This document shows positions 408 to 50,833 of a stretch of 50,999 nucleotides of DNA, in pieces. The DNA is from a virus. The notes beneath the pieces are model-generated. The model made no database searches. It was not told the origin of the DNA and saw only the letters and a program-made list of their open reading frames with translations. The translations under genes were made by a program, and so were the position numbers. The stretch covers positions 1 to 50,999 of IMG/VR virus record IMGVR_UViG_3300007640_009134; one strand, given 5' to 3'. The first letter of the stretch is position 1. Each line of letters begins with the position of its first letter.

Positions 408-1101
408 AAAAAAAGTACTCATAACAGGAGGTACTAAGGGTATTGGTAAATCTATTTCTAAAATTTTTACCGATAATAATTTTTGTGTCCATATAACAGG
501 TACTAAACAACAAGTTGTTCCTGATTATGTGGACACTTTTTTTATTGTTGATTTTTCTAATAAAGAACAAACAAAAATTTTTTTAGATAAAATTTCTACA
601 GAAAATTATGATGTACTTATTAACAATGCCGGTACAAATATAATCAAACCAATTCAAGAAGTTTCTGAATCAGATTGGGAAATAATTCACAATATAAATC
701 TAAAAATTCCATATTTTATAACAAAAGAAGTATCTAAGCGTATTCCAAATGGTGGTAAAATAGTTAATATAACATCTATATTTTCACATGTATCAAAAGA
801 GTTTAGGTCTTTATATTCAACAACAAAATTTGGTTTAGATGGTCTAACTAAATCATTATCAATTGAGCTGGGACCAAGAAATATCTTAGTAAATTCAGTT
901 TCGCCAGGATTTACAAATACCGAACTAACTGATAGGTCATTAGACATTTCACAAAAATTAGAACTAAGTAAAAACATACCATTAGGTCGATTTGCAGAAA
1001 CATCTGAAATTTCTGAACTAGTATATTTTTTATCGTCTGATAAAAATACTTACATAACAGGACAAAATATAATAATTGACGGGGGATTTACATCAAAATG
1101 A
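400..1101 (+). CDS. Short-chain dehydrogenase/reductase (FabG-like SDR)
   Basis: Classical NAD(P)-dependent SDR of 233 residues, the usual length. The cofactor loop GGTKGIG is at residues 10-16, NNAG at about 75-78, and the catalytic Ser (about 126), Tyr139 and Lys143 lie in an ITS...YSTTK arrangement. The C-terminus carries the SDR signature ITGQNIIIDGG. It probably oxidises or reduces a sugar or cyclitol intermediate in the surrounding pathway; the substrate cannot be read from sequence. It overlaps the SIS gene by 8 nt and the cyclase gene by 4 nt (ATGA), indicating translational coupling. Confidence 0.85.
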   Translation: MSKKKVLITGGTKGIGKSISKIFTDNNFCVHITGTKQQVVPDYVDTFFIVDFSNKEQTKIFLDKISTENYDVLINNAGTNIIKPIQEVSESDWEIIHNINLKIPYFITKEVSKRIPNGGKIVNITSIFSHVSKEFRSLYSTTKFGLDGLTKSLSIELGPRNILVNSVSPGFTNTELTDRSLDISQKLELSKNIPLGRFAETSEISELVYFLSSDKNTYITGQNIIIDGGFTSK

Positions 1102-2105
1102 AAATAACATCTAGTATAAAAACATATGAAGTTTTGTTTATGGATTATGAAAAATTCATAGACGAATATTACTCAAATGGTGATATTATAGTACTAGACG
1201 AAAGGTTTAATTTGGATATTTTAGAAGATAAAAAATCCATAAAAATTAAATCAACTGAGGACAACAAAGAATATAATTACATATCGAATATAATATCCGA
1301 AATTATCTCAAACGGTTTTAAAAAAAACAATAAACTATTTGCGATTGGAGGTGGCGTAATACAAGACATCACTGGTTTTATTTCATCTATATTATACAGA
1401 GGTGTTGAATGGTATTTTTTACCTACAACCTTATTATCTCAAGGAGATAGTTGTATTGGAGGTAAGACATCAATTAATTTTGGTTCCTATAAAAACCAAA
1501 TAGGTAATTTTTATCCACCAACTAAAGTTTGTATTGATATTATTTTCTTAGAAACATTACCCGAAAAAGAAATATATTCAGGTTTAGGTGAGATGTTACA
1601 TTATTTTATTTTTTCTTCGGAAAAAGACTTAATTATATACGACAAATTATTAGAAGACCGTAACTATTATAAATTGATTAAAAATAGTTTAGAAATAAAA
1701 AAATCGGTTATTGAAATTGATGAATTAGAAACTGGCATACGAAAACTTTTTAACTACGGACATACTTTTGGTCATGCAATTGAAAGTATAACAAATTATA
1801 CAATTCCACATGGGATTGCTGTTGCACATGGAATGAAAATTAGTAATTTCATTTCAATGTCAAAAGGATTTTTAGATTATGAAAATTACATTAAGATAAA
1901 TTCAGTAATTGAAAAAATAATAAAAAACTATACTCTACCACCTTTTGATTTGAACGATTATTTTGAATTATTAAAGAAGGATAAAAAAAACAGTATCGGT
2001 GTCATAAAACCTATCTTGATAGAGGAATGTGGTGAATTATTTCAGTACGAATTTACATATGATAGTGATTTATTACCATTATTGAAAAAATATTTTGAAT
2101 TATGA
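1098..2105 (+). CDS. 3-dehydroquinate synthase-like sugar-phosphate cyclase
   Basis: Member of the AroB / sugar-phosphate cyclase superfamily (NAD-dependent, metal-binding), 335 residues. The GGGVIQD nucleotide loop (about 85-91), PTTLLSQGDSCIGGKTSIN (about 109-126) and the metal ligands E165, H222 (GHTFGH) and H238 are all visible. The helix normally reading AEVIKYG in DHQ synthase here reads GEMLHYF, so the usual active-site lysine is a histidine. A GmhA-like isomerase, SDR and aminotransferase nearby make sedoheptulose 7-phosphate cyclisation or another sugar cyclisation more likely than aromatic amino acid synthesis. Family is certain, reaction is inferred. Confidence 0.8.
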   Translation: MKITSSIKTYEVLFMDYEKFIDEYYSNGDIIVLDERFNLDILEDKKSIKIKSTEDNKEYNYISNIISEIISNGFKKNNKLFAIGGGVIQDITGFISSILYRGVEWYFLPTTLLSQGDSCIGGKTSINFGSYKNQIGNFYPPTKVCIDIIFLETLPEKEIYSGLGEMLHYFIFSSEKDLIIYDKLLEDRNYYKLIKNSLEIKKSVIEIDELETGIRKLFNYGHTFGHAIESITNYTIPHGIAVAHGMKISNFISMSKGFLDYENYIKINSVIEKIIKNYTLPPFDLNDYFELLKKDKKNSIGVIKPILIEECGELFQYEFTYDSDLLPLLKKYFEL

Positions 2106-4766: not shown

Positions 4767-5899
4767 TGGAAATTAGTAAATCAAATATCAAATTTAATTT
4801 ATCTAAAAGTCATGGTTCATACATCTATGATGATAACAGAGAGTGTGAATTTTTAGACCTAATGTCAATGTATTCATCATTACCATTAGGTTATAATCAT
4901 TATATTTTTGATGACAAAAAATATATAAAATCTATTTTAGAATATTCCAAGGTAAAAACTTGTAATTGTGAATACAATACGGAAGAAAGAGAAGTTTTTG
5001 AAAAAGAGTTTTTAGATTTTGTGAGTGTAGAAAAATATGATTTCGTTCATTTTGCAAGTACAGGTGCATTGTCTGTTGAAATGGCAATAAAAGCCGCTAT
5101 AGATTTTTCTAAAAAACCTGAAGGAAAAGTGGTGTATTTTGAAAAAAGTTTTCATGGAATATTAGGATACTCAAACTTCATCACTGATAGAATAGGTTCA
5201 ACAAAAGATAGATTAGATGGGTTTATAAATTATAATTGGATAAAAGTTTCAAATTCTAAAGAATTAGAATCTATTCTATCTTCAGATTCAAATATTTCTT
5301 GCGTGATAATAGAACCAATTAGATGTACACAAGGAGACCTTTATTACGAAGAATCAGAATTAGACTCTATCTATAGCATTTGTAAAAAATATTCTGTTAT
5401 TACAGTTACAGATGAAATACAAACTGGGTTTGGTGCAACAGGAAATATTTGGTATACAAATGATAAATCAGACATCATAGTATTTGGTAAAAAATCTCAA
5501 GTTTCAGGATTTTTAACATCTAAAAAAATAGGTTCAACCCTAAACCCAATTAGATATTGTGTAACATGGGATGGTGATGTCTTAGATATGATAAGGTCTA
5601 GATACATAATAAAAACAATCAACAAAGATGACCTATTGTCAAATGTTAATCAATTAGGTGATTATTTTTTGTCCGAACTAAGTAGAATTGATGGTATCAA
5701 AAACGTAAGAGGTAAAGGGTTTATTATTGCCTTTGATATGGACAATAAAGAAAAAAGAGATTATTTTTATAAAAGATGTATTGAAAATAAGTTATTAGTA
5801 AATTTAACGGGTGAAGTATCAATTAGATTGCGACCTAACTTATGTATTGATAAAAAAACAATTGATGAATCCTTACGAAGAATTAAAGACTCACTATGA
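4766..5899 (+). CDS. Class III PLP-dependent aminotransferase
   Basis: 377 residues with class III (ornithine/acetylornithine/GSA) aminotransferase features: FASTGALSVEMAIKAA (cofactor phosphate region), the TDEIQTGFG motif around D216-E217, and the Schiff-base lysine in VFGKKSQVSG at about residue 242. A KSFHGILG segment near residue 127 matches the conserved SFHG motif. It probably transaminates a keto or aldehyde group of a sugar or cyclitol made by the cluster. Start and stop overlap neighbours (TAATG and ATGA). Family call is solid, substrate unknown. Confidence 0.8.
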   Translation: MEISKSNIKFNLSKSHGSYIYDDNRECEFLDLMSMYSSLPLGYNHYIFDDKKYIKSILEYSKVKTCNCEYNTEEREVFEKEFLDFVSVEKYDFVHFASTGALSVEMAIKAAIDFSKKPEGKVVYFEKSFHGILGYSNFITDRIGSTKDRLDGFINYNWIKVSNSKELESILSSDSNISCVIIEPIRCTQGDLYYEESELDSIYSICKKYSVITVTDEIQTGFGATGNIWYTNDKSDIIVFGKKSQVSGFLTSKKIGSTLNPIRYCVTWDGDVLDMIRSRYIIKTINKDDLLSNVNQLGDYFLSELSRIDGIKNVRGKGFIIAFDMDNKEKRDYFYKRCIENKLLVNLTGEVSIRLRPNLCIDKKTIDESLRRIKDSL

Positions 5900-12010: not shown

Positions 12011-12591
12011 AAATTGCAATAGAAATAAATGGTGTTTTAAGAGATACTATAGGTAAGATAGAACAAACTTATAGAAAATTCTTAATGGATGATATATTAT
12101 TAGAGGAGTCAGATTTTAAACGAGAAGTTACTGAACCTATTGATAGTTTAAATCTTTCTAACCATTTTAAATTTAAAGATGAAAATGAAATATATGAGTT
12201 TTTATATTTAGAATTTGCAATGCAAATATTTGGACATGCTGGTTCTTCTGAAACATTCACATTCAATGATTTGAATGATTTTTATATTGAATTTAGAGAT
12301 AAGTATAAAATAATTTTAATCTCAGATGAGATTGGTAAATCAAAACCTTCAACATTATTTTTCCTTTCAAAGTTTGGGTGTTTAATTGAACATATAACTT
12401 TTTACAGTAAATTAACTAAGGATGATGTTTTATCTGATGTTGACATTTTACTTACTTCTAATCCTGAACTATTATTAGAAAATAATAATGTTTTGAAAAT
12501 AAAGTATGTAACAAAATACAATCAAGATATCAATTGTGAAAATACAATAACTAAAATAAAAGAACTAAAAGATATAATAGAAAAATTATGA
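12007..12591 (+). CDS. Degenerate HAD-like protein
   Basis: 194 residues that follow the HAD fold pattern but lack the catalytic aspartates. The N-terminal motif that should read DxD reads IAIEINGVLRD (E-I-N), and the later segment KIILISDEIGKSKPSTLFFLSK resembles motif II plus the motif III lysine region. It is probably a catalytically inert binding or structural protein derived from a HAD phosphatase. It overlaps both neighbours by 4 nt and sits between phoH and a small unknown gene. Confidence 0.5.
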   Translation: MKIAIEINGVLRDTIGKIEQTYRKFLMDDILLEESDFKREVTEPIDSLNLSNHFKFKDENEIYEFLYLEFAMQIFGHAGSSETFTFNDLNDFYIEFRDKYKIILISDEIGKSKPSTLFFLSKFGCLIEHITFYSKLTKDDVLSDVDILLTSNPELLLENNNVLKIKYVTKYNQDINCENTITKIKELKDIIEKL

Positions 12592-28180: not shown

Positions 28181-28375
28181 ATGTTAATTGTCAAAGTACA
28201 CGGTTCTCAGGGAATTGAACGAGCGTTGAAAGAGCTAAAGGGTAAGGTCATTAGGACCAAACAGAACAACATATTAATTGATAGAAAAGAGTTCAAGAAA
28301 AAATCCGTTACGAGAAGAGAACAAATCAAAAAAGCAAAATATGTTCAGTCTGTAAAAGATAGAGAACAATTATAG
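28181..28375 (+). CDS. rpsU: Phage-encoded ribosomal protein bS21
   Basis: 64 residues, the family length. Start set at the ATG; an upstream TTG would add three residues. The pattern MLIVKVHGSQGIERALKELK, then RKEFKKKSVTRREQIKKAKY, follows bS21, with the Bacteroidota-style REQIKKAKYVQ region; Tyr54 is at the position that in Flavobacterium ribosomes contacts the 16S anti-Shine-Dalgarno. It would join the 30S platform and alter start selection. It is the only plus-strand gene inside the minus-strand head cluster and converges on a head gene (6-nt tail overlap). No SD precedes it; an imperfect GATATTTG box lies just upstream. Confidence 0.88.
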   Translation: MLIVKVHGSQGIERALKELKGKVIRTKQNNILIDRKEFKKKSVTRREQIKKAKYVQSVKDREQL

Positions 28376-29065
28376 TGAGTTATATAACTGTCTCATTTTT
28401 ATAAGTTCTATCTTACCACTATTTTCTTTACTAACTTTTTCAATAGTCTCAGATATTTTATTTTTTACACTTAAATCCTCAACAGTATTTTTAACTTCAG
28501 ATAACTTTTCAATAGTTTTTTCTTTCAAAGACTCAAATTCCTCTTTAATTGATTCTTCAGGTTTTGAGACTAATTCAACAAATTCTTGTTTTTCTGATTC
28601 AGATAACGTTTCAATAACTGATTCAATTTGTTTGTTGGCAATTCCAATTATTGTTGATAAAGGTAATTTTACTGTTTCCAAAACAGATTGTTTTCTTTGT
28701 AAATTTTCAGATATCTTTTTCTTTGATGTAACAACTTTTGATAAATCTGAACCATAGACTAACATATCAATATCAGAATATTCGTTTTCTGTTACAACAT
28801 CCTGAACCCAATCCATTATTTTGATGAACTTATTATTCTTATATTGTGAAACTATTCTTACACCTTCATTGATATATTCCAAGGAATCTTCTTTTGAGAA
28901 ACCCATGTTTTTAGACAAGTCTGAATAAACATTATAAATCTTAGAAAAACTTTTATCTTCAATTACAAGTTTTGAAAAATTCTTCATATTAGATTTAAAA
29001 GAATTTTTACCATAAGACTCAACAAGTCTTTTATTTATCTTCGATATCAAATTACCTAGTGTCAT
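28370..29065 (-). CDS. Putative prohead core protein, 231 aa
   Basis: Not assignable by motif. The protein is largely helical, with a Lys/Glu-rich coiled-coil second half (EEFESLKEKTIEKLSEVKNTVEDL). It follows the portal gene, where T4 has the small core proteins gp67 and gp68, so a scaffold-core role is plausible from position only. An exact TATTTATA box lies 11 nt before its start. Confidence 0.55.
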   Translation of the reverse strand: MTLGNLISKINKRLVESYGKNSFKSNMKNFSKLVIEDKSFSKIYNVYSDLSKNMGFSKEDSLEYINEGVRIVSQYKNNKFIKIMDWVQDVVTENEYSDIDMLVYGSDLSKVVTSKKKISENLQRKQSVLETVKLPLSTIIGIANKQIESVIETLSESEKQEFVELVSKPEESIKEEFESLKEKTIEKLSEVKNTVEDLSVKNKISETIEKVSKENSGKIELIKMRQLYNSL

Positions 29066-38883: not shown

Positions 38884-40890
38884 ATGATTGAATCAATGGA
38901 TGACGACGACAAGAAAATTCCAAAACGAAAAGGAATTAGTGAGACAGGTACCCCTGTATTGGATAACTTTAGCCGTGACCTAAATAAATTGGCGGAAGAA
39001 GGTAAATTGGACCCTGTAATTGGTAGGGAGCGTGAGATTATGAGAATTGCACAAATCCTATCAAGACGAAAGAAAAATAATCCTATTATCATAGGTGAAC
39101 CAGGTTGTGGTAAAACAGCAATCGTTGAAGGTTTGGCAATGAAAATCTATGAAGGTGATTGTCCTCGTAACCTTATCGATAAACGAGTGGTTAGTTTGGA
39201 TATGACCTCTATTGTTGCCGGTACAAAATACCGTGGACAGTTTGAAGAACGTTTGAAAGTTATTTTGGAAGAACTTCAATCAAACCCAAACATTATCGTA
39301 TTCATCGATGAAATTCATACCATCGTTGGGGCAGGTAATTCATCAGGTTCGTTGGACGCTTCTAACATTATCAAACCCGCACTTTCTCGTGGTGAAATTC
39401 AATGTATTGGTGCAACCACTTTGGATGAATACCGAGAGAACTTTGAAAAAGATGGTGCATTGGAACGTAGATTCCAAAAAGTTGTGGTGGACCCTTCAAC
39501 TAAATCTGAAACTTTTGAGATTCTAAAACAACTTAGAAACAAATATGAAGAATTTCATAAAGTGAGTTATTCTGATGAGGTTTTGAATATTTGTGTAAAT
39601 TTAGCGGACCGTTATATCACAGACCGTGAATTCCCTGATAAAGCGTTTGACATCATGGATGAGGTTGGTGCTCGTACACAAACAGAAATTAAAGTTCCTG
39701 AAATCGTTGAAAAACTAAAACAACAAGCTCACGAAATCAAACAACAAAAAGTTGAGGTAGTACGTAAACAGAACTACGAACAAGCCGCTGAACTTCGTGA
39801 TAAGGAACGTAAGATTTTAACTAAATTAGATTCCGAGAAAAAGAAGTGGGAGGAAGAAATGTCAAAACAAAGAAAAGAAATTTTACCTGAAATGGTATTC
39901 GAGGTAGTTTCTAACATGACAAAAATTCCCGTAAGTAAAATGTCTGTTGAGGATACTAAAGCACTTATCAATATGGAAAACAATTTGAAGGGAATGGTTA
40001 TTGGTCAAGATGAGGCGGTTTCAAAAATCTCTAAATCAATTCGTAGAAATAGAATTGGTATCAAAGACCCCAACCGAGCAATTCGTTCATTTGTTTTCTT
40101 AGGTTCAACAGGTGTGGGTAAGACTCACTTGGCAAAACAATTGGCCAAAGAAGTGTTTGGTTCAGAAGACGCGTTGATTCGAGTAGACATGAGTGAGTTC
40201 CAAGAAAAACACACCATTTCAAAATTGATTGGAGCACCTCCGGGGTACGTTGGTTACAATGAAGGTGGCCATCTTACAGAACAGGTGAAAAATAAACCAT
40301 ATTCTGTTGTGTTATTTGACGAAGTTGAAAAGGCAAACAAAGACATCTTTTCAACATTGTTACAGGTACTTGATGATGGATTCTTAACTGATAGTTTGGG
40401 TCGCAAAATCAATTTCAAAAACTGTCTTATTATTATGACATCTAACATTGGTGTTAAAAAATTACAGGACTTTGGAACAGGTATTGGTTTCTCAACCAAC
40501 AACTACAGCAATGAAGAACATAAAAAAGAAATTCTAAAAGCTGAACTTAAAAAATTCTTCTCACCTGAATTTATCAACCGTATCGATGAAGTTGTTGTGT
40601 TCAATTCCTTGGATAAAGAGAATATCAAGAAAATCGTAACGATTGAACTTAATAAATTGATTTCTCGTCTAAATGAATTGAAATACTACTTCAAGTTCGA
40701 TAATAAAGTTGTTGAGCATATAGCCGACGTGGGGTATGATGAGTTGTATGGTGCAAGACCTTTGAAACGAGCAATCCAAGAAAAAATTGAGGATAAAATT
40801 TCCGAAGAGATTCTGATGGGTAATGTTGTTGAGGACAAGAAATACCAAATGACTTATAAAAATGAGGATTTTGAAATCAAGGGGTCGTAA
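38884..40890 (+). CDS. ClpC-like AAA+ unfoldase lacking the Clp N-domain
   Basis: 668 residues; host ClpC is about 810-850. Two AAA modules: Walker A1 GEPGCGKT (about 70-77), Walker B1 VFIDEIHT, then Walker A2 GSTGVGKT (about 406-413) and Walker B2 VVLFDEVEKA. Between them is a short UVR-type middle segment (NYEQAAELRDKERK). After KLQDFGTG comes IGF (about 533), where ClpC carries its ClpP-docking loop, so docking to host ClpP is plausible. The ~150-residue N-terminal adaptor/substrate domain is missing. The terminator stem overlaps its stop. Confidence 0.9.
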   Translation: MIESMDDDDKKIPKRKGISETGTPVLDNFSRDLNKLAEEGKLDPVIGREREIMRIAQILSRRKKNNPIIIGEPGCGKTAIVEGLAMKIYEGDCPRNLIDKRVVSLDMTSIVAGTKYRGQFEERLKVILEELQSNPNIIVFIDEIHTIVGAGNSSGSLDASNIIKPALSRGEIQCIGATTLDEYRENFEKDGALERRFQKVVVDPSTKSETFEILKQLRNKYEEFHKVSYSDEVLNICVNLADRYITDREFPDKAFDIMDEVGARTQTEIKVPEIVEKLKQQAHEIKQQKVEVVRKQNYEQAAELRDKERKILTKLDSEKKKWEEEMSKQRKEILPEMVFEVVSNMTKIPVSKMSVEDTKALINMENNLKGMVIGQDEAVSKISKSIRRNRIGIKDPNRAIRSFVFLGSTGVGKTHLAKQLAKEVFGSEDALIRVDMSEFQEKHTISKLIGAPPGYVGYNEGGHLTEQVKNKPYSVVLFDEVEKANKDIFSTLLQVLDDGFLTDSLGRKINFKNCLIIMTSNIGVKKLQDFGTGIGFSTNNYSNEEHKKEILKAELKKFFSPEFINRIDEVVVFNSLDKENIKKIVTIELNKLISRLNELKYYFKFDNKVVEHIADVGYDELYGARPLKRAIQEKIEDKISEEILMGNVVEDKKYQMTYKNEDFEIKGS

Positions 40891-45462: not shown

Positions 45463-45466
45463 TTTG

Positions 45467-45539
45467 AGCCTCCTGTCGGATTCGAACCAACGACCTTGAG
45501 ATTACAAATCACACGCTCTACCAGCTGAGCTAAGGAGGC
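45467..45539 (-). tRNA. tRNA-Thr (anticodon UGU)
   Basis: Cloverleaf with acceptor GCCTCCT/AGGAGGC, D-arm AGCTCAGCTGGTAGAGC, anticodon loop TTTGTAA and T-arm GTTGG-TTCGAAT-CCGAC. CCA is not encoded. Confidence 0.93.
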
Positions 45540-45549
45540 AACTTTGACA

Positions 45550-45581
45550 CAAATATATATCAGGATATCTATTTTGTCAAA
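45550..45581 (-). promoter_or_regulatory. Bacteroidota-type promoter for tRNA-Thr
   Basis: Minus strand TTTG (45578-45581), 20-nt spacer, TATATTTG (45550-45557), ending 10 nt before the tRNA. Confidence 0.75.
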
Positions 45582-45589
45582 TTAATTTA

Positions 45590-45730
45590 CTATTCTTTAC
45601 CAGATTGTTCTGACATTGAGGGTGTAAGTAATGTCATCAAACACCACCATGGATTTTTTGACATCCAAATTGCAAGACCAACTACTGAATAAAACAGTAA
45701 AATTGTTAGAATATATGTTACGTACTTCAT
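45590..45730 (-). CDS. Single-span membrane peptide, 46 aa
   Basis: Begins MKYVTYILTILLFYSVVGLAIW, one membrane helix near the start, followed by SKNPWWCLMTLL and a polar end. Starts in an ATGA overlap with the HAD gene. Size and layout fit a small inner-membrane or superinfection/lysis accessory peptide; not recognised. Confidence 0.55.
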   Translation of the reverse strand: MKYVTYILTILLFYSVVGLAIWMSKNPWWCLMTLLTPSMSEQSGKE

Positions 45731-46326
45731 AATAAAAATGATAAAATTTTTTCTTTTACACCTGACTGTTTTATCCCTTCCCAATCACGAGGGGTCCATG
45801 CGAAATTACTCAAACCCCAATCTCTTTTTGTTGGTCCATATGACGTATTAATATTAATACCCATATTCAGGTCGTCAATTGCAACCCAATGTGTTACAGA
45901 TGGATTCTTACTCAACCAACGCATAATTTCAAAATAACGCTGTTGTTCCAAATCATCAATTCTACTCCAAGGGAAATTCTCACTAACAATACCTTCTTCA
46001 ACCCAATCACGATGATGGAACTTATCTGTAATTGAATACGGTCTTTTGATAATTCCTTGTGACTGGTAGTAATCCCCCAATTCTTCATGGGTTGCATGAA
46101 ATCTCCAATCAGAACTCACAACGATTTCAGCATCAGTTTGTTCTAAAATTTCATTTAGAACTTTGACAGCTTTTTTGTCAAAGTTATCAAATCGATATTC
46201 CAATGGAATTTCCCTACCTCTCATAGATAGTTTCATTCCACCCCACTTATCTTGTTTTTTGCGGCGAGAACCCCAGTTATTAGCGAGACAGATAACACCA
46301 TCGTTATCTAAAAATATAACTTTCAT
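45727..46326 (-). CDS. HAD-superfamily phosphatase-like protein (RNA-repair-associated HAD type)
   Basis: 199 residues from the ATG of an ATGA overlap with the zinc-ribbon peptide gene. MKVIFLDNDGVICL carries motif I (D-N-D-G), VVSSDWRFHATHEEL the motif II Ser/Asp region and WVAIDDLNM the motif IV acidic pair. The SSDWR form resembles the HAD domain found in Swiss-army-knife RNA repair proteins. It may be a 3'/5' phosphatase for nucleic acid ends; next to tRNA genes, a tRNA-repair role is worth testing. Confidence 0.7.
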   Translation of the reverse strand: MKVIFLDNDGVICLANNWGSRRKKQDKWGGMKLSMRGREIPLEYRFDNFDKKAVKVLNEILEQTDAEIVVSSDWRFHATHEELGDYYQSQGIIKRPYSITDKFHHRDWVEEGIVSENFPWSRIDDLEQQRYFEIMRWLSKNPSVTHWVAIDDLNMGININTSYGPTKRDWGLSNFAWTPRDWEGIKQSGVKEKILSFLL

Positions 46327-46433
46327 TTTTTTCCTTTCGGTTTTGTCAAACATTCAACACAAATGTACTGTGTCATTGTCAAAGGTGGAATTTGTGTCCC
46401 ACACACTATACACTTATTTAGTTCTTGTGACAT
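46323..46433 (-). CDS. Zinc-ribbon-like micro-protein, 36 aa
   Basis: MSQELNKCIVCGTQIPPLTM then QYICVECLTKPKGKK: two CxxC knuckles 20 residues apart, enough for one zinc ribbon. Its stop overlaps the HAD start (ATGA), which supports real translation. Confidence 0.6.
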   Translation of the reverse strand: MSQELNKCIVCGTQIPPLTMTQYICVECLTKPKGKK

Positions 46434-46446
46434 ATTGGAAACTTAG

Positions 46447-46518
46447 TAGGTCCACCAGGACTCGAACCTGGAATAGAAGCTTAGAAGGCTACTGTTATAT
46501 CCCTTTAACTATGGACCC
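46447..46518 (-). tRNA. tRNA-Arg (anticodon UCU)
   Basis: Acceptor GGGTCCA/TGGACCT (one G-U), anticodon loop CTTCTAA, T-arm CCAGG-TTCGAGT-CCTGG. The anticodon stem has one T-T mismatch. CCA is not encoded. Decodes AGA/AGG, frequent in this AT-rich genome. Confidence 0.9.
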
Positions 46519-46530
46519 GTTTTGTTGATA

Positions 46531-46538
46531 CAAATTTA
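46531..46538 (-). promoter_or_regulatory. -7 box TAAATTTG before tRNA-Arg
   Basis: Matches TAnnTTTG on the minus strand, ending 12 nt before the tRNA; no clear TTTG at the expected -33 site. Confidence 0.45.
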
Positions 46539-46715
46539 CGTCTTTTTTACGTAATATCGATACCCTGAATCAGAATTTTTTGTCAAAAGTTCTGACATTT
46601 TGATTGCGTCATCTGCGGTTTCAAAAGTCCACACTTCTTCTTGACCATTTAGCATTACAACAGGAAGTTCTTTACCTTCTGCGTTTTTAATCATTTTGAT
46701 TATAATATAAGACAT
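46536..46715 (-). CDS. Small hypothetical protein, 59 aa
   Basis: MSYIIIKMIKNAEGKELPVV, then LNGQEEVWTFETADDAIKMSE and a GYRYYVKK end. It forms a compact beta-beta-alpha-beta pattern similar to small host Bacteroidota proteins, but the family is not recognised. It lies between tRNA-Arg and a membrane peptide gene. Confidence 0.5.
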   Translation of the reverse strand: MSYIIIKMIKNAEGKELPVVMLNGQEEVWTFETADDAIKMSELLTKNSDSGYRYYVKKT

Positions 46716-46716
46716 A

Positions 46717-46842
46717 TTAGAATATTAATACGATTGCAAGTGTAATAAAAAATAAAATATAAGTCAAACGCATTACTTTATAGTTTTCCTCAACTTGTTT
46801 TTTTGTGCGTCCTTGCCATTCGTTTCTGTCCCATTGTTCCAT
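46717..46842 (-). CDS. Small membrane peptide, 41 aa
   Basis: MEQWDRNEWQGRTKKQVEEN then a C-terminal membrane helix (LTYILFFITLAIVLIF). One nt upstream of the 59-aa gene's start region. A tail-anchored micro-protein, not recognised. Confidence 0.5.
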   Translation of the reverse strand: MEQWDRNEWQGRTKKQVEENYKVMRLTYILFFITLAIVLIF

Positions 46843-46875
46843 AGTTGTATTTTTAATATCTTTCTCAGCGAGTAT

Positions 46876-46990
46876 GGTTAGCGCGGGTCCCCACCTTCTT
46901 TAACTCCTAACCGGTCCGTCCATCACCCTCTATGTGGACTTGTGTTTGGTCTTCGTATAACAGTCTACGAAAAGGACTTGCACGTAGGAG
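46876..46990 (-). ncRNA. Unassigned structured element between tRNA-Glu and the 41-aa gene
   Basis: No open frame. Hairpins: GGTTAG/CTAACC (46876-46881 with 46907-46912), GTCCA/TGGAC (46918-46922 with 46935-46939), TTCGTA/TACGAA (46952-46957 with 46966-46971). CTCCTA (46904-46909) can instead pair with TAGGAG (46985-46990), excluding the first stem. It is notably less AT rich than normal intergenic sequence. Strand assumed from the adjacent tRNA. Confidence 0.4.
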
Positions 46991-47004
46991 AACTGAGTTA
47001 TTTG

Positions 47005-47077
47005 TAGCCCGACGGGGAATCGAACCCCGCTTTTATCCGTGAAAGGGATATGTCCTGAACCGATAGACGACCGGGCC
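47005..47077 (-). tRNA. tRNA-Glu (anticodon UUC)
   Basis: Acceptor GGCCCGG/TCGGGCT with end G-U pairs, anticodon stem TATCC/GGATA with loop CTTTCAC, T-arm CGGGG-TTCGATT-CCCCG. CCA is not encoded. Confidence 0.93.
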
Positions 47078-47088
47078 ATTTTGTGATA

Positions 47089-47120
47089 CAAAGATAAGAC
47101 AAATTATTTAATCTTTCAAA
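47089..47120 (-). promoter_or_regulatory. Bacteroidota-type promoter for tRNA-Glu
   Basis: Minus strand TTTG (47117-47120), 20-nt spacer, TATCTTTG (47089-47096), ending 11 nt before the tRNA. The -33 element lies inside the end of the upstream gene. Confidence 0.75.
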
Positions 47121-47779
47121 CTAATTGTTTTTTCTTCTTCTTCTTTTTCGACATCTTCCCTAAAATTTATCTCTAACTTCATTGTTTTCATTCTTGGGCT
47201 GAAGTACAAATCTCCGTATCCTCCATCATTATTTACCCAATCCCATTGTTGTAATACGTGATAACAAAAATCTTCAATCTCAGCTGGGATATTAGTTACA
47301 GTGGTAGAATGCATACCATTGTCAGTCATTACCGACATTTCTTGTAAAGAACCATCATCACCATACCCATCAAAACTAACAGAAAATGCATTGATATATC
47401 TGTCCTCAATCTTTGAAAATAATTCCATCAATTCTTCATTATCCTCATCAAGATAAAGTTCCTCACTATCTACTGTTTCAAGTTCTCTCCAATTAGTGTA
47501 AATTGTAATTGTGTCATCAAGACAGTTAAATTCCATTCTACCTCCATAATCAGTGTAACCTATTTCATCCTTTAATAATTCTTTTATATTTTCATCCAAA
47601 ATTTCAAGTGGAAATGGTGTCATAATGGTTGTTGAATAACCATCTTTAGTTTCTACTTTTAATTCATCAGTTTCCCATATACTATTATCATCTGAAAATT
47701 CAAGTGAAAACTTAATACCACCCATAGTTTTTACATACTTGGTTAGCTTTAGTAAATATTTTTTTAAAATTCCATCCAT
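47108..47779 (-). CDS. Hypothetical acidic protein, 223 aa
   Basis: Not recognised. Rich in Asp/Glu, with VKTMGGIKFSLEFSDDNSIW near the N-terminus and GYGDDGSLQEMSV in the middle, ending in a charged DVEKEEEEKTIS tail. A late-type box (one mismatch) lies 3 nt before the start. The end contains the -33 element of the tRNA-Glu promoter. Confidence 0.6.
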   Translation of the reverse strand: MDGILKKYLLKLTKYVKTMGGIKFSLEFSDDNSIWETDELKVETKDGYSTTIMTPFPLEILDENIKELLKDEIGYTDYGGRMEFNCLDDTITIYTNWRELETVDSEELYLDEDNEELMELFSKIEDRYINAFSVSFDGYGDDGSLQEMSVMTDNGMHSTTVTNIPAEIEDFCYHVLQQWDWVNNDGGYGDLYFSPRMKTMKLEINFREDVEKEEEEKTISLKD

Positions 47780-47782
47780 AGT

Positions 47783-47790
47783 GATAAATA
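47783..47790 (-). promoter_or_regulatory. Late-type TATTTATC box
   Basis: One-mismatch minus-strand copy just upstream of the start at 47779. Confidence 0.35.
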
Positions 47791-48144
47791 TTAGTCGTTT
47801 ATATCAATATCTAACGTTCTAACCATCCATATGGGTTTTTTGGACGCTTTGATTGCCTCTAACCATTCTTTAGCCGTTGGGATGTGTCCGTAACAATCTT
47901 CCTTTACATGTTGTTCTCCCACATAACGAGTGTATACTGTCTTTCCATCACTATTTGTAAATGACGCACCAAAGACTTTTTCCATCTCAAAAATACCTTC
48001 ACTATGGTGCCTAAACATTCTGTGACTTGAACTTCCAATCCAAGCTTTTGTTTCATCCAACCAATTGTGTAGATGAATATAATCTTCAACAACCCCACCA
48101 AATCTCTTTACTGAAGATTTAGCGTGTAGTAATGGATGTGCCAT
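47791..48144 (-). CDS. DUF6915-like protein
   Basis: 117 residues. MAHPLLHAKSSVKRFGG, then HNWLDETKAW, RHHSEGIFEMEKVFG, GEQHVKEDCYG and IPTAKEWLEAI match the conserved path of a phage/bacterial family (DUF6915). Many conserved His and Asp could bind metal, but function is unknown. Overlaps the upstream gene by 1 nt. Confidence 0.7.
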   Translation of the reverse strand: MAHPLLHAKSSVKRFGGVVEDYIHLHNWLDETKAWIGSSSHRMFRHHSEGIFEMEKVFGASFTNSDGKTVYTRYVGEQHVKEDCYGHIPTAKEWLEAIKASKKPIWMVRTLDIDIND

Positions 48145-48356
48145 TAATCTTGTTGTGGTTGTTCGTCATACAATCCCTGAGCTTTTTTAAGTTTGATAAC
48201 CTTAAGAGCTTGTAGATAAATGTCCGATTTATCACTCTTTTTATCATCTTGCATGAGGGTTTGGGCTTCAATAAAAAGCTCTGTACGAAGACCTAGTTCA
48301 AAGGCTTCATGTAAAACTTCTTCAATAATTTCAGAATTTGTCATGGGTTTCTTCAT
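48144..48356 (-). CDS. Hypothetical protein, 70 aa
   Basis: MKKPMTNSEIIEEVLHEAFE then a helix-rich basic part (LQALKVIKLKKAQGLYDEQ). Helix-bundle look, not recognised. Start placed 26 nt inside the preceding lipoprotein gene; a second ATG 12 nt later is equally possible. Confidence 0.5.
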   Translation of the reverse strand: MKKPMTNSEIIEEVLHEAFELGLRTELFIEAQTLMQDDKKSDKSDIYLQALKVIKLKKAQGLYDEQPQQD

Positions 48357-48624
48357 CTTTAAATTTGTAATAATAGATAGTGTCACCAAAGTCATATCTA
48401 GGTTTATTCGTTATTACTCTAGTACCACAATCTGTATGATAAATATATTTGTAATCACTTTCTATAGTACTACGAGGTTTGGATTTCTCAATGTGTGTAA
48501 CAATACACTTTTTTACAAGAACTTTTTCGCGGTTGATACAACCTGTCAATACAATAGCAAAAGTAATAACTAATGCAAACCAAAATAGAATAATTAACGA
48601 TTCTTTACTAAAATATTTTTTCAT
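48331..48624 (-). CDS. Putative phage lipoprotein, 97 aa
   Basis: N-terminal signal with hydrophobic core and lipobox: ILFWFALVITFAIVLTGC at about residues 10-27, with Cys27 as the lipid site. The mature part is basic and short, with two more Cys. Phage lipoproteins act as Rz1-type spanins or superinfection exclusion factors; no coupled Rz gene is visible. A start 15 codons earlier would run into tRNA-Pro, so the ATG at 48624 is preferred. Confidence 0.65.
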   Translation of the reverse strand: MKKYFSKESLIILFWFALVITFAIVLTGCINREKVLVKKCIVTHIEKSKPRSTIESDYKYIYHTDCGTRVITNKPRYDFGDTIYYYKFKDEETHDKF

Positions 48625-48628
48625 TTTG

Positions 48629-48701
48629 TCGGGGTGACTGGACTCGAACCAGCGGCCTCCTGCTCCCAAAGCAGGCGCGCTACCAACTGTGCTACACCCC
48701 G
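48629..48701 (-). tRNA. tRNA-Pro (anticodon UGG)
   Basis: Acceptor CGGGGTG/CACCCCG, anticodon loop TTTGGGA in stem CCTGC/GCAGG, T-arm GCTGG-TTCGAGT-CCAGT (last pair G-T). CCA is not encoded. Confidence 0.93.
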
Positions 48702-48706
48702 TATTT

Positions 48707-48714
48707 CAAATATA
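48707..48714 (-). promoter_or_regulatory. -7 box TATATTTG before tRNA-Pro
   Basis: Minus-strand match to TAnnTTTG, 5 nt before the tRNA 5' end; the -33 site is not obvious. Confidence 0.4.
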
Positions 48715-48765
48715 TGCCAAACAAAATTAAAAATCCATAAAAATATGAATTTGTTTGGCAATTTG

Positions 48766-48839
48766 TGGACCGTGAGAGACTCGAACTCTCGACCCCCTGC
48801 GTGCAAAGCAGGTGCTCTAGCCAACTGAGCTAACAGCCC
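48766..48839 (-). tRNA. tRNA-Ala (anticodon UGC)
   Basis: Acceptor GGGCTGT/ACGGTCC holds the G3-U70 alanine identity pair; anticodon stem CCTGC/GCAGG with loop TTTGCAC; A73. CCA is not encoded. Confidence 0.93.
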
Positions 48840-48844
48840 TTTTG

Positions 48845-48918
48845 CGGTATGGACGGGACTCGAACCCGCGACCCTCGGCGTGACAGGCCGATATTCTAAC
48901 CAACTGAACTACCACACC
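48845..48918 (-). tRNA. tRNA-Asp (anticodon GUC)
   Basis: Acceptor GGTGTGG/CCATACC, anticodon loop CTGTCAC, discriminator G73 as expected for Asp. CCA is not encoded. Confidence 0.93.
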
Positions 48919-48924
48919 AATATG

Positions 48925-48997
48925 AGCGAGAGACCGGGTTCGAACCGGCGACCCTGACCTTGGCAAGGTCATGCTCTACCAACTGAGCTACTCTCGC
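48925..48997 (-). tRNA. tRNA-Gly (anticodon GCC)
   Basis: Acceptor GCGAGAG/CTCTCGC, anticodon stem TGACC/GGTCA with loop TTGCCAA, U73 as in bacterial glycine tRNAs. Confidence 0.93.
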
Positions 48998-49001
48998 AAT
49001 T

Positions 49002-49098
49002 AGATGGCGAATAATTTGCGATTATTCATTTCTACTTCTGAATATGCTGATTAAGTTAACATCACAGCAGGAATTTCATTTTCGTCTAACTACCATCT
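49002..49098 (-). ncRNA. Unassigned 97-nt structured spacer between two tRNA-Gly genes
   Basis: Closing stem AGATGG/CCATCT (49002-49007 with 49093-49098). Inside are a hairpin GAATAAT-TTGCG-ATTATTC (49009-49027) and a second arm TGCTG/CAGCA (49045-49049 with 49065-49069). The closing stem fills the gap between tRNAs with 3-4 nt left on each side. No open frame. Not a recognisable tRNA. Confidence 0.45.
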
Positions 49099-49101
49099 TT
49101 G

Positions 49102-49174
49102 AGCGGGAGACGAGACTCGAACTCGCGACTTTCAGCTTGGAAGGCTGAAGCTCTACCAACTGAGCTACTCCCGC
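49102..49174 (-). tRNA. tRNA-Gly (anticodon UCC)
   Basis: Acceptor GCGGGAG/CTCCCGC, anticodon stem TCAGC/GCTGA with loop CTTCCAA, U73. Second glycine tRNA; with GCC it covers all glycine codons. Confidence 0.93.
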
Positions 49175-49184
49175 AAAATGGTGT

Positions 49185-49247
49185 ACCACTAGTGCCCAGC
49201 TAGCCGTCGTCGCAGGAATCGGAAGGGCTCATCGGATACACCAAGAT
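49185..49247 (-). ncRNA. Unassigned 63-nt structured spacer between tRNA-fMet and tRNA-Gly(UCC)
   Basis: Outer stem GGTGTA/TACACC closes the element; nested pairs GCCC/GGGC and CCG/CGG fit inside it. GC rich relative to its surroundings and without an open frame. No known ribozyme or RNA family recognised. Confidence 0.4.
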
Positions 49248-49255
49248 GTTTATAG

Positions 49256-49327
49256 TTGCGGGAGAAGGATTCGAACCTCCGACCACAAGGTTATGAGCCT
49301 TGTAAGCTACCTCTGCTCTATCCCGCG
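49256..49327 (-). tRNA. Initiator tRNA-fMet (anticodon CAU)
   Basis: CGCGGGA pairs with TCCCGCA so that position 1 C faces A72 unpaired, the key mark for formylation and initiation. The D-stem has a purine-pyrimidine 11-24 pair (A-U), as in initiators. Anticodon loop CTCATAA in stem CAAGG/CCTTG, so two of the three initiator G-C pairs are kept. The 3' end CCCGCA-A matches bacterial fMet tRNAs. Confidence 0.88.
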
Positions 49328-49338
49328 ATATCGTTATA

Positions 49339-49369
49339 CAAATATACGAAAAATATTTATATTTCCAAA
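49339..49369 (-). promoter_or_regulatory. Bacteroidota-type promoter for tRNA-fMet
   Basis: Minus strand TTTG (49366-49369), 19-nt spacer, TATATTTG (49339-49346), ending 11 nt before the tRNA. Confidence 0.65.
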
Positions 49370-49379
49370 TTTTTTTTTG

Positions 49380-49453
49380 CTCCCCCTCTTGGACTCGAAC
49401 CAAGGACATCGAAATTAACAGTTTCGCGCTCTAACCAACTGAGCTAAGGAGGA
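49380..49453 (-). tRNA. tRNA-Asn (anticodon GUU)
   Basis: Acceptor TCCTCCT/AGGGGGA, anticodon stem CGAAA/TTTCG with loop CTGTTAA, G73 as expected for Asn. Confidence 0.93.
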
Positions 49454-49501
49454 GTGCATGACATGCAAGGTTTTAAAAGTGGGTCTTTGACGATTTATGA
49501 A

Positions 49502-49843
49502 TTATCCGTTAATAACGGATTTTTCGGTTTTTAGTTTATCTAATTCTCTGTAGATTTCTGCAATATGTTTAGACATACTATCCACAGTCTTATCGGTTCT
49601 ACTGTCAATGTGACGATAGATTTTTTCCATCTCTTCTCTTAGATTTCGGTCGGTATTATTCAGACCGTTCCAGATTTGGTTACCCTCTTTCTCCATTTCT
49701 CTATGAATATGTTCAATATTTCCACGAAGAGAGTTTATTTCCTTTTTCAAGGACATAGTTGTCATATAATTCACTAACGTACCCACGACCATCATAACAA
49801 TGATGACCGCACATACACCTAAAATAAATGATGTTATTTCCAT
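49502..49843 (-). CDS. Membrane-anchored coiled-coil protein, 113 aa
   Basis: N-terminal membrane helix (about 5-27: SFILGVCAVIIVMMVVGTLV), then a long coiled coil to the end (LKKEINSLRGNIEHIHREME). The shape is like phage Rz (i-spanin) or a membrane tether, and a putative lipoprotein gene lies 0.9 kb downstream. It is the only protein gene inside the tRNA run. Not recognised by family. Confidence 0.6.
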   Translation of the reverse strand: MEITSFILGVCAVIIVMMVVGTLVNYMTTMSLKKEINSLRGNIEHIHREMEKEGNQIWNGLNNTDRNLREEMEKIYRHIDSRTDKTVDSMSKHIAEIYRELDKLKTEKSVING

Positions 49844-49882
49844 AATTCGTTAAAGTTTTAATATGTCAAAGAACCCACTTAG

Positions 49883-49965
49883 TTGGAAGGGACGGATTCG
49901 AACCGCCGTACCCGTAAGGGAACAGATTTACAGTCTGTCGGTTTTAACCACTCACCCACCTTCCA
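49883..49965 (-). tRNA. tRNA-Tyr (anticodon GUA)
   Basis: Class II tRNA of 83 nt with a long variable arm (CCCTTACGGG). Acceptor TGGAAGG/CCTTCCA, anticodon stem CAGA/TCTG with loop CTGTAAA, A73. Confidence 0.92.
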
Positions 49966-49970
49966 ATATC

Positions 49971-50110
49971 GGGAACAGGAATAACTTTATCAGGAATCTC
50001 GTCCGTACACTGAAGTACTCGACTTCACACACCATTAGAGAGTTGTACTTAGTGTGTACCCTTGTGCTCAATGCTCTCCCAGCTTGTTATTCTACGCTTC
50101 CTCTGTTCCC
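49971..50110 (-). ncRNA. Unassigned 140-nt structured element between tRNA-Phe and tRNA-Tyr
   Basis: Closing stem of 8 bp GGGAACAG/CTGTTCCC (49971-49978 with 50103-50110) and, stacked on it on one side, a second 7-bp stem GAATAAC/GTTATTC (49979-49985 with 50086-50092). A long imperfect arm pairs GTACTT.AGT.GTAC with GTAC.ACT.AAGTAC further inside. It fills the gap between the tRNAs with 5 nt on each side. No open frame and no known family recognised; the rod with an internal loop is loosely like 6S RNA. Confidence 0.5.
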
Positions 50111-50115
50111 TTTTG

Positions 50116-50188
50116 TGGTATGAGCTGGAATCGAACCAACGGCACATGGATTTTCAGTCCATTGCTCTACCTTCTGAGCTATCACACC
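50116..50188 (-). tRNA. tRNA-Phe (anticodon GAA)
   Basis: Acceptor GGTGTGA/TCATACC, anticodon stem TGGA/TCCA with loop CTGAAAA, A73. Confidence 0.93.
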
Positions 50189-50195
50189 ATTTTTG

Positions 50196-50268
50196 TTGTG
50201 TGGGTGGGATTTGAACCCACGACTGCGATGGTATAAGCATCGTACTCTTACCCCTGAGTTACCACACA
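50196..50268 (-). tRNA. tRNA-Ile (anticodon UAU)
   Basis: Acceptor TGTGTGG/CCACACA, D-stem ACTC/GAGT, anticodon stem CGATG/CATCG with loop CTTATAC, T-arm GTGGG-TTCAAAT-CCCAC, A73. UAU reads AUA directly, whereas most bacteria read AUA with a lysidine-modified CAU anticodon. Confidence 0.88.
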
Positions 50269-50279
50269 ATATAGTTGTA

Positions 50280-50287
50280 CAAATATA
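50280..50287 (-). promoter_or_regulatory. -7 box TATATTTG before tRNA-Ile
   Basis: Minus-strand TAnnTTTG match ending 11 nt before the tRNA; an ATTG lies near the -33 site. Confidence 0.5.
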
Positions 50288-50321
50288 ACAATAAAAAACC
50301 TTTATTGTCAATTTTTTTTTG

Positions 50322-50395
50322 AGGTCCCGGTCAGATTCGAACTGACGAATAACGGGATTGCAAACCGCCCCCTTAAACCACTTGGGTACAGGACC
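50322..50395 (-). tRNA. tRNA-Cys (anticodon GCA)
   Basis: Acceptor GGTCCTG/CGGGACC, anticodon arm GCGGT-TTGCAAT-CCCGT (one T-C mismatch next to the loop), U73 as required for Cys. A UGC reading would need a worse stem. Confidence 0.85.
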
Positions 50396-50400
50396 ATTAG

Positions 50401-50473
50401 GGTGACTGATGGGACTCGAACCCACGGCATCTTGAACCACAATCAAGTGTTCTCCCTCTGAACTACAGCCACC
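50401..50473 (-). tRNA. tRNA-His (anticodon GUG)
   Basis: The extra G(-1) pairs with C73, the histidine identity element. Acceptor GTGGCTG/CAGTCAC, anticodon stem CTTGA/TCAAG with loop TTGTGGT. Confidence 0.92.
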
Positions 50474-50481
50474 ATATTTTG

Positions 50482-50562
50482 TACCGAAGGTGGGACTCGA
50501 ACCCACACACTTTGAAGTGCTGCATCCTAAGTGCAGTGCGTCTACCATTTCGCCACTTCGGC
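50482..50562 (-). tRNA. tRNA-Leu (anticodon UAG)
   Basis: Class II tRNA of 81 nt with a variable arm. Acceptor GCCGAAG/CTTCGGT, anticodon stem TGCA/TGCA with loop CTTAGGA, A73. Confidence 0.92.
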
Positions 50563-50568
50563 ATTTTG

Positions 50569-50643
50569 TAACCCCGGTGGGACTCGAACCCACGACCCCC
50601 TCATTAAAAGTGAGGTGCTCTAAACCAACTGAGCTACGAAGTC
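50569..50643 (-). tRNA. tRNA-Lys (anticodon UUU)
   Basis: Anticodon stem CTCA/TGAG with loop CTTTTAA. The acceptor GACTTCG/CGGGGTT has three G-U pairs and is weak. A73. It begins 5 nt after the RNase P RNA end, so both are probably cut from one transcript. Confidence 0.9.
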
Positions 50644-50648
50644 ATTCC

Positions 50649-50833
50649 ATTGACAATAATAACCAGGATTTTGTTTTAATCTGTCATTCATCTATTGGCC
50701 CCTACCTTGTCCGTCCTGCTCACCGACATGGACTATTTTGGGTTGCATCCTCGGTGGTATAACGATTTCTCTTCCACCTTAAGCAGTGATGTCCTGAGTT
50801 TCCTCTCCGTAGAGCGACAGAAACATTGTCAAT
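50649..50833 (-). ncRNA. rnpB: Miniature RNase P RNA, phage-encoded
   Basis: 185 nt. P1: ATTGACAAT/ATTGTCAAT closes the ends. P2: TCTGTC/GACAGA. P3: CTCT-ACGG-AGAG. P4, the catalytic core: AAC-U-CAGGA (50792-50800) with TCCTG-GTT (50661-50668), keeping the single bulged U. Conserved region I reads GAGGAAACTCAGGAC and region V reads AGATGAATGACAG (50681-50693), one base off the E. coli form; the ACAAAATCCTGG end mirrors ACAGAACCCGG. Only a short hairpin (GGTGG/CCACC) stands for the P7-P12 specificity domain. It lies immediately upstream of the tRNA run. Confidence 0.88.

Follow-up and report, generated by a model that had tools for sequence, protein, structure and literature searches.

A putative miniature RNase P RNA, reduced to the catalytic domain, in a large bacteriophage and its relatives in other viral sequences

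The window considered here is the whole analysed stretch of 50,999 nucleotides, positions 1 to 50,999 of the IMG/VR virus record IMGVR_UViG_3300007640_009134. It encodes 17 tRNAs, one tmRNA, a terminase, a portal protein, gp23 and a ClpA/ClpB-type AAA+ protein. Near its end, between the first tRNA of the array and a gene that runs off the window, lies a 185-nt stretch measured from the first to the last base of P1. The tRNA-Lys gene starts after a gap of 5 nt, and the stop codon of the upstream gene overlaps P1. A HAD domain of the 'Swiss Army Knife' RNA repair proteins (PF18143), perhaps a tRNA repair function, is encoded within the tRNA array. The positions of these features, and of those in related loci, are collected in the table.

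Positions of the mini RNase P RNA, its predicted structural elements and neighbouring features (L numbers denote related loci, with positions counted within the locus)
Sequence	Feature	Position	Strand	Remarks
Window	Mini RNase P RNA gene, P1 to P1	50649..50833	-	RF00010 match over the whole model; covariation in 26 sequences
Window	P1 5' strand (AUUGACAAU)	50825..50833	-	Pairs perfectly with 50649-50657; all 9 pairs show double changes
Window	P1 3' strand (AUUGUCAAU)	50649..50657	-	
Window	P2 5' strand (UCUGUC)	50816..50821	-	Pairs with 50680-50685; 6 of 6 pairs covary
Window	P2 3' strand (GACAGA)	50680..50685	-	
Window	P3, 3 bp closed by a UACG tetraloop	50805..50814	-	Site of an HNH-endonuclease gene in relative L140
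Window	CR I (GAGGAAACUCAGGA) and P4 5' strand	50792..50805	-	Bulged U at 50797
Window	CR V (ACAAAAUCCUGGUUA) with P4 3' strand 50661-50668	50660..50674	-	P4: 6 of 8 pairs with double changes, 99% of cells paired
Window	P5 5' strand (CAUC)	50788..50791	-	
Window	P5 3' strand (GAUG)	50746..50749	-	
Window	J5/15 GCAA (region of E. coli A248)	50743..50746	-	Last A is 26/26 in relatives
Window	P6 pseudoknot 5' strand (CUGCU)	50782..50786	-	All 5 pairs show double changes, 95.9% of cells paired
Window	P6 pseudoknot 3' strand in L17 (AGCAG)	50716..50720	-	
Window	P15-P16-P17 element	50700..50742	-	L15 GGU at 50704-50706; P15, P16 and P17 covary
Window	CR IV (AGAUGAAUG)	50685..50693	-	Reached directly from P15, through a few bases, without P18
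Window	tRNA-Lys, first of 17 tRNAs downstream	50568..50643	-	Probable substrate
Window	Upstream gene, C-terminal 56 codons	50829..50999	-	
Window	tRNA genes	45466-50643	-	All 17 end in the discriminator base plus C
Window	HAD domain, PF18143	45727-46353	-	
Window	ClpA/ClpB-type AAA+ protein	38884-40890		
L140 (contig IMGVR_UViG_3300033182_000991)	Insert in P3 with HNH endonuclease gene	858-1499		185 aa, PF13395
L348 (LR745206)	RnpA	76441-76752 of LR745206	+	
L370 (LR756502)	RnpA	28183-28473		
L215	Bacterial small SRP RNA, RF00169	5828-5917	-	49.9 bits, over cut-off
L155	tRNA 81 nt downstream of the RNA	5586-5658		Irregular anticodon by ARAGORN (ctta)
L203	tRNA 81 nt downstream of the RNA	12491-12563		Irregular anticodon by ARAGORN (ta)
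L190	Group I intron, RF00028	7420-7637	+	76.5 bits; about 6 kb from the mini RNA

The Rfam model of bacterial class A RNase P RNA (RF00010) covers this stretch over model positions 1-367 at 45.1 bits, with an E-value of 1.7e-14 for the record, so the match is not due to chance. The score lies below the curated gathering cut-off of 100 bits because the specificity domain is missing, and the default Rfam search is silent. Some 150 model positions are replaced by a few tens of bases. The sequence-only reading had proposed a phage-encoded RNase P RNA of about 185 nt, almost without a specificity domain, in which P1, P2, P3 and P4 pair, the bulged U of P4 is kept and conserved regions I and V are nearly bacterial. 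Its coordinates and these structural statements are confirmed, the identity is supported, and CR IV is also nearly bacterial. It missed P5, P15, P16, P17, the P6 pseudoknot and the absence of P18; P7 is present as well, whereas P8-P14 are gone. The folding energy alone does not reveal the RNA, and neither supports nor refutes it: the minimum free energy (MFE) z-score is -0.44, and the nested native fold, without counting P4 and P6, reaches -34.2 against an MFE of -43.3 kcal/mol. The evidence is the covariance model together with covariation.

The relatives were found in several steps. The RF00010 search over 50 relatives by gp23 or the ClpA/B-type protein found nothing, even at E 10 for nine of them. 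A first sequence pattern for viral contigs, with CR IV as TAGATGAATG, also found nothing, and a broader CR I/CR IV/CR V pattern gave 50 hits, judged by eye to be almost all coincidences in coding sequences. One of these hits was a short, ordinary-looking class A RNA that does not belong to the phage family (35.5 bits with the model R1, described below). The upstream gene fragment found 35 relatives in viral contigs, and four of those loci (L140, L155, L156 and L157, of which L155 and L156 are identical) carry a homologous RNA at or near the same site. Two motifs derived from these led to further contigs with nhmmer matches, and from 17 members a model, R1, was built. BLASTN of single members against 50,697 named phages mostly failed, but one of them, L215, led to the 595-kb phage LR756511 and so to the huge phages.

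With R1, 26 distinct members including the window were counted, and one more in LR756502, with lengths from 182 to about 295 nt. Of the 26 members other than the window, 21 are in viral contigs and 5 in huge phages of 484-735 kb: LR756511 (595 kb), LR756508 (484 kb), LR756501 (735 kb), LR745206 (635 kb) and LR756502 (642 kb), which are five of five examined. The last three match by size the 634-, 642- and 735-kb complete genomes of Al-Shayeb et al. (PMC7162821), where the genomes above 634 kb were predicted to infect Bacteroidetes. With RF00010, relatives L201, L215 and L221 reach E-values of 4e-11 to 8e-15, but no relative passes the gathering cut-off. The viral status of L215, L217 and L221 is less certain, as no terminase was found, although the RNA of L215 resembles that of phage LR756511. 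The distribution is patchy: only 3 of 50 phages related by gp23, the ClpA/B-type protein or the neighbouring gene have a convincing copy, so the RNA is dispensable in that group, and the Flavobacterium phage immuto, a gp23 relative, has none. In L163 and L165-L169, phages without the mini RNA at this site, the first 250 nt after the neighbour-gene match hold a structured-looking, conserved spacer between tRNAs (AAATAGGTTGATTGGGGAA...), of unknown nature.

Covariation among the members is overwhelming. On the plain MAFFT alignment of 17 sequences, 39 of 52 pairs show changes on both sides, with a covariation of 0.425 against 0.170 for shuffled alignments and at most 0.169 when the partners are slid by 1-3 columns. 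On the model-based alignment of 26, 45 of 50 pairs are doubly changed, with a covariation of 0.672 against 0.186 shuffled and at most 0.120 slid, and P7 is among the covarying helices. This second alignment leans to the nested helices by construction. The fair test is provided by P4 and P6, which are pseudoknotted and were not in the R1 structure. In these helices 97.9% of cells are paired and 41 cells are doubly changed against 7.0 in shuffles, with 0 of 500 shuffles reaching the observed value. P6 appears as CUGCU/AGCAG, CAGCU/AGCUG, UUGCU/AGCAA, CCGCU/AGCGG, UUGUU/AACAA and GAACC/GGUUC. P4 changes too, while its bulged U stays in 26 of 26, and the L15 GGU, which binds tRNA 3' ends, is kept in 22 of 26. 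In L140, whose neighbouring gene is 93% identical to that of the window, the RNA is interrupted in P3 by about 640 nt holding the endonuclease gene, the last codons of which run into CR I; the ends of the insert pair into a long extended P3, and the rest of the RNA is intact.

The phage RNAs are distinct from those of the bacteria examined. Nine Bacteroidota genomes each have a full class A RNA of 313-454 nt over the cut-off, which R1 scores at 52 bits or less, or not at all, against 74-208 for phage RNAs; the highest value is that of the window, from which R1 was partly built. The third P4 pair, next to the bulge, has G on its 5' side in all nine Bacteroidota and is C-G in 19 of 26 phage RNAs, including the window. 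An 18-nt motif with 16 fixed bases gave 19 family members among 37 hits in viral contigs and none among 106 hits in genomes of 84,980 cellular species (best 18.6 bits). A search of 395 Bacteroidota genomes with R1 was empty, but as only six candidates a genome were scored, it was too shallow to count.

The protein partner of bacterial RNase P, RnpA (PF00825), is absent from the window and from 27 other IMG/VR records with the RNA, so a host protein must be assumed there. However, LR745206 encodes one (TIGR00188 equivalog 44.2 over 38.35 bits; PF00825 49.7 over 22.3; RNRIKRLMRE motif) and LR756502 another, 51% identical. Both also hold the mini RNA, and these two phages therefore carry both subunits of a bacterial-type RNase P.

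Most members lie in tRNA arrays. In 11 of 24 records a tRNA starts 3-11 nt after the 3' end of P1, and in several a tRNA ends 0-8 nt before P1. From this gene order it is inferred that the RNA of the window is transcribed together with the upstream gene and the tRNA array, and that cleavage by RNase P at the next tRNA also releases the RNA's own 3' end. The window tRNAs have no encoded CCA, yet the L15 GGU is mostly kept in the family. L184 and L186 carry tRNAs with a CUA anticodon, which are possible amber suppressors.

The comparison with known systems places the RNA close to the bacterial class A lineage. It shares with RF00010, its best Rfam match, P1-P5, P7, P15-P17, the P6 pseudoknot, CR I/IV/V, the bulged U and the L15 GGU. 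It fails two defining features of class A, the specificity domain and P18, so it should not be filed as a class A member, though it is plainly related to that lineage. The archaeal type T RNase P RNAs of Pyrobaculum and Caldivirga also have a degenerate specificity domain and no P18, with P6 suggested (PMC5839562), and have a similar size of 195-215 nt (PMC7191817). They are archaeal, while Rfam prefers the bacterial class A model within the clan for the window RNA, and the partner found in phages is bacterial RnpA. The suggestion of the sequence-only reading that the RNA is close to the smallest known natural ones is fair, as it has 185 nt and L213 182, although smaller mitochondrial RNAs appear to exist. 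Diverged RNase P RNAs of CPR bacteria (PMC8172020) are likewise reduced forms missed at default cut-offs, and some lack P12-P14 and P18, but they are cellular genes, and one described example also lacks the UGG/GGU motif.

A further parallel is the E. coli catalytic-domain RNA engineered by Mao et al. (PMC5839562). Deleting the S domain of E. coli RNase P RNA leaves an active catalytic domain, with or without C5 protein. A P6-like pairing then matters, while P18, which normally docks on P8 in the S domain, does not. The activity is nevertheless lowered 120-fold by loss of the elbow-binding domain. The phage RNAs, which are natural and have a short P7 cap, have lost the S domain and P18 together and kept P6 under strong covariation, which is what that experiment would predict for a working enzyme.

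The locus is thus best explained, with good though not complete confidence, as a phage-encoded RNase P RNA reduced to the catalytic domain, with a fold kept by selection across many phages. Most likely it binds RnpA, from the host in most phages and their own in at least two huge phages, and cleaves 5' leaders from phage pre-tRNAs by recognising the acceptor stem, leader and 3' end rather than the tRNA elbow. That it matures the phage tRNAs, proposed also by the sequence-only reading, remains an inference without expression or activity data, though gene order and the conservation of catalytic and CCA-binding nucleotides support it. The RNA probably descends from a bacterial type A RNA that lost P8-P14 and, with them, P18.

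Among the alternatives, it is unlikely but conceivable that the RNA acts as a decoy or regulator, which captures host RnpA or host pre-tRNAs and redirects or inhibits host RNase P. It lacks the S domain, and as most phages carry no RnpA of their own it must compete for host protein if it uses one. However, the nucleotides for catalysis and CCA binding are kept, the gene order follows tRNA arrays, and two huge phages bring RnpA too. Slightly less likely is an enzyme specialised for another substrate, such as pre-tmRNA, pre-4.5S RNA or its own polycistronic transcript. A tmRNA lies in the window and in L176, L182, L189 and L213, the SRP RNA of L215 lies about 460 nt from the mini RNA, and enzymes with only the C domain are less dependent on the tRNA elbow (PMC5839562), but most members sit directly next to tRNAs and not next to tmRNA or SRP RNA. 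A decaying copy captured from a host, which the patchy distribution and the interrupted RNA of L140 might suggest, is contradicted by the compensatory changes and invariant core bases over very divergent phages. Bacterial contamination or misassembly is contradicted by the phage genes on the same contig, by the RNA at or near the same site in L140, L155 and L157, and by the absence of family members among the 106 cellular hits.

RNase P RNA is one of the few near-universal ribozymes, and no report of one in a virus was found in the open-access papers searched, which leave out subscription papers and most preprints; the RNase P surveys read do not mention phages. PMC7162821 lists tRNAs, synthetases, tmRNA and CCA-adding enzyme, but its main text never mentions RNase P. 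Default Rfam thresholds miss the whole family, so it is probably more widespread than the members found here and unannotated. A natural bacterial-type RNA without the specificity domain is the counterpart of the engineered catalytic domain, and makes directly testable how a ribozyme survives without its tRNA-elbow-binding half. It is possible, although this reading is tentative, that large phages possess their own RNase P lineage, specialised on phage tRNA arrays and self-released from them. In this scenario, the largest phages carry both subunits and mature their tRNAs independently of the host enzyme, which could keep the tRNA supply going when the host enzyme or its gene is shut down or attacked. 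The finding adds a processing step to the list of translation functions that phages carry, and it suggests how phages with dozens of tRNA genes could mature them.
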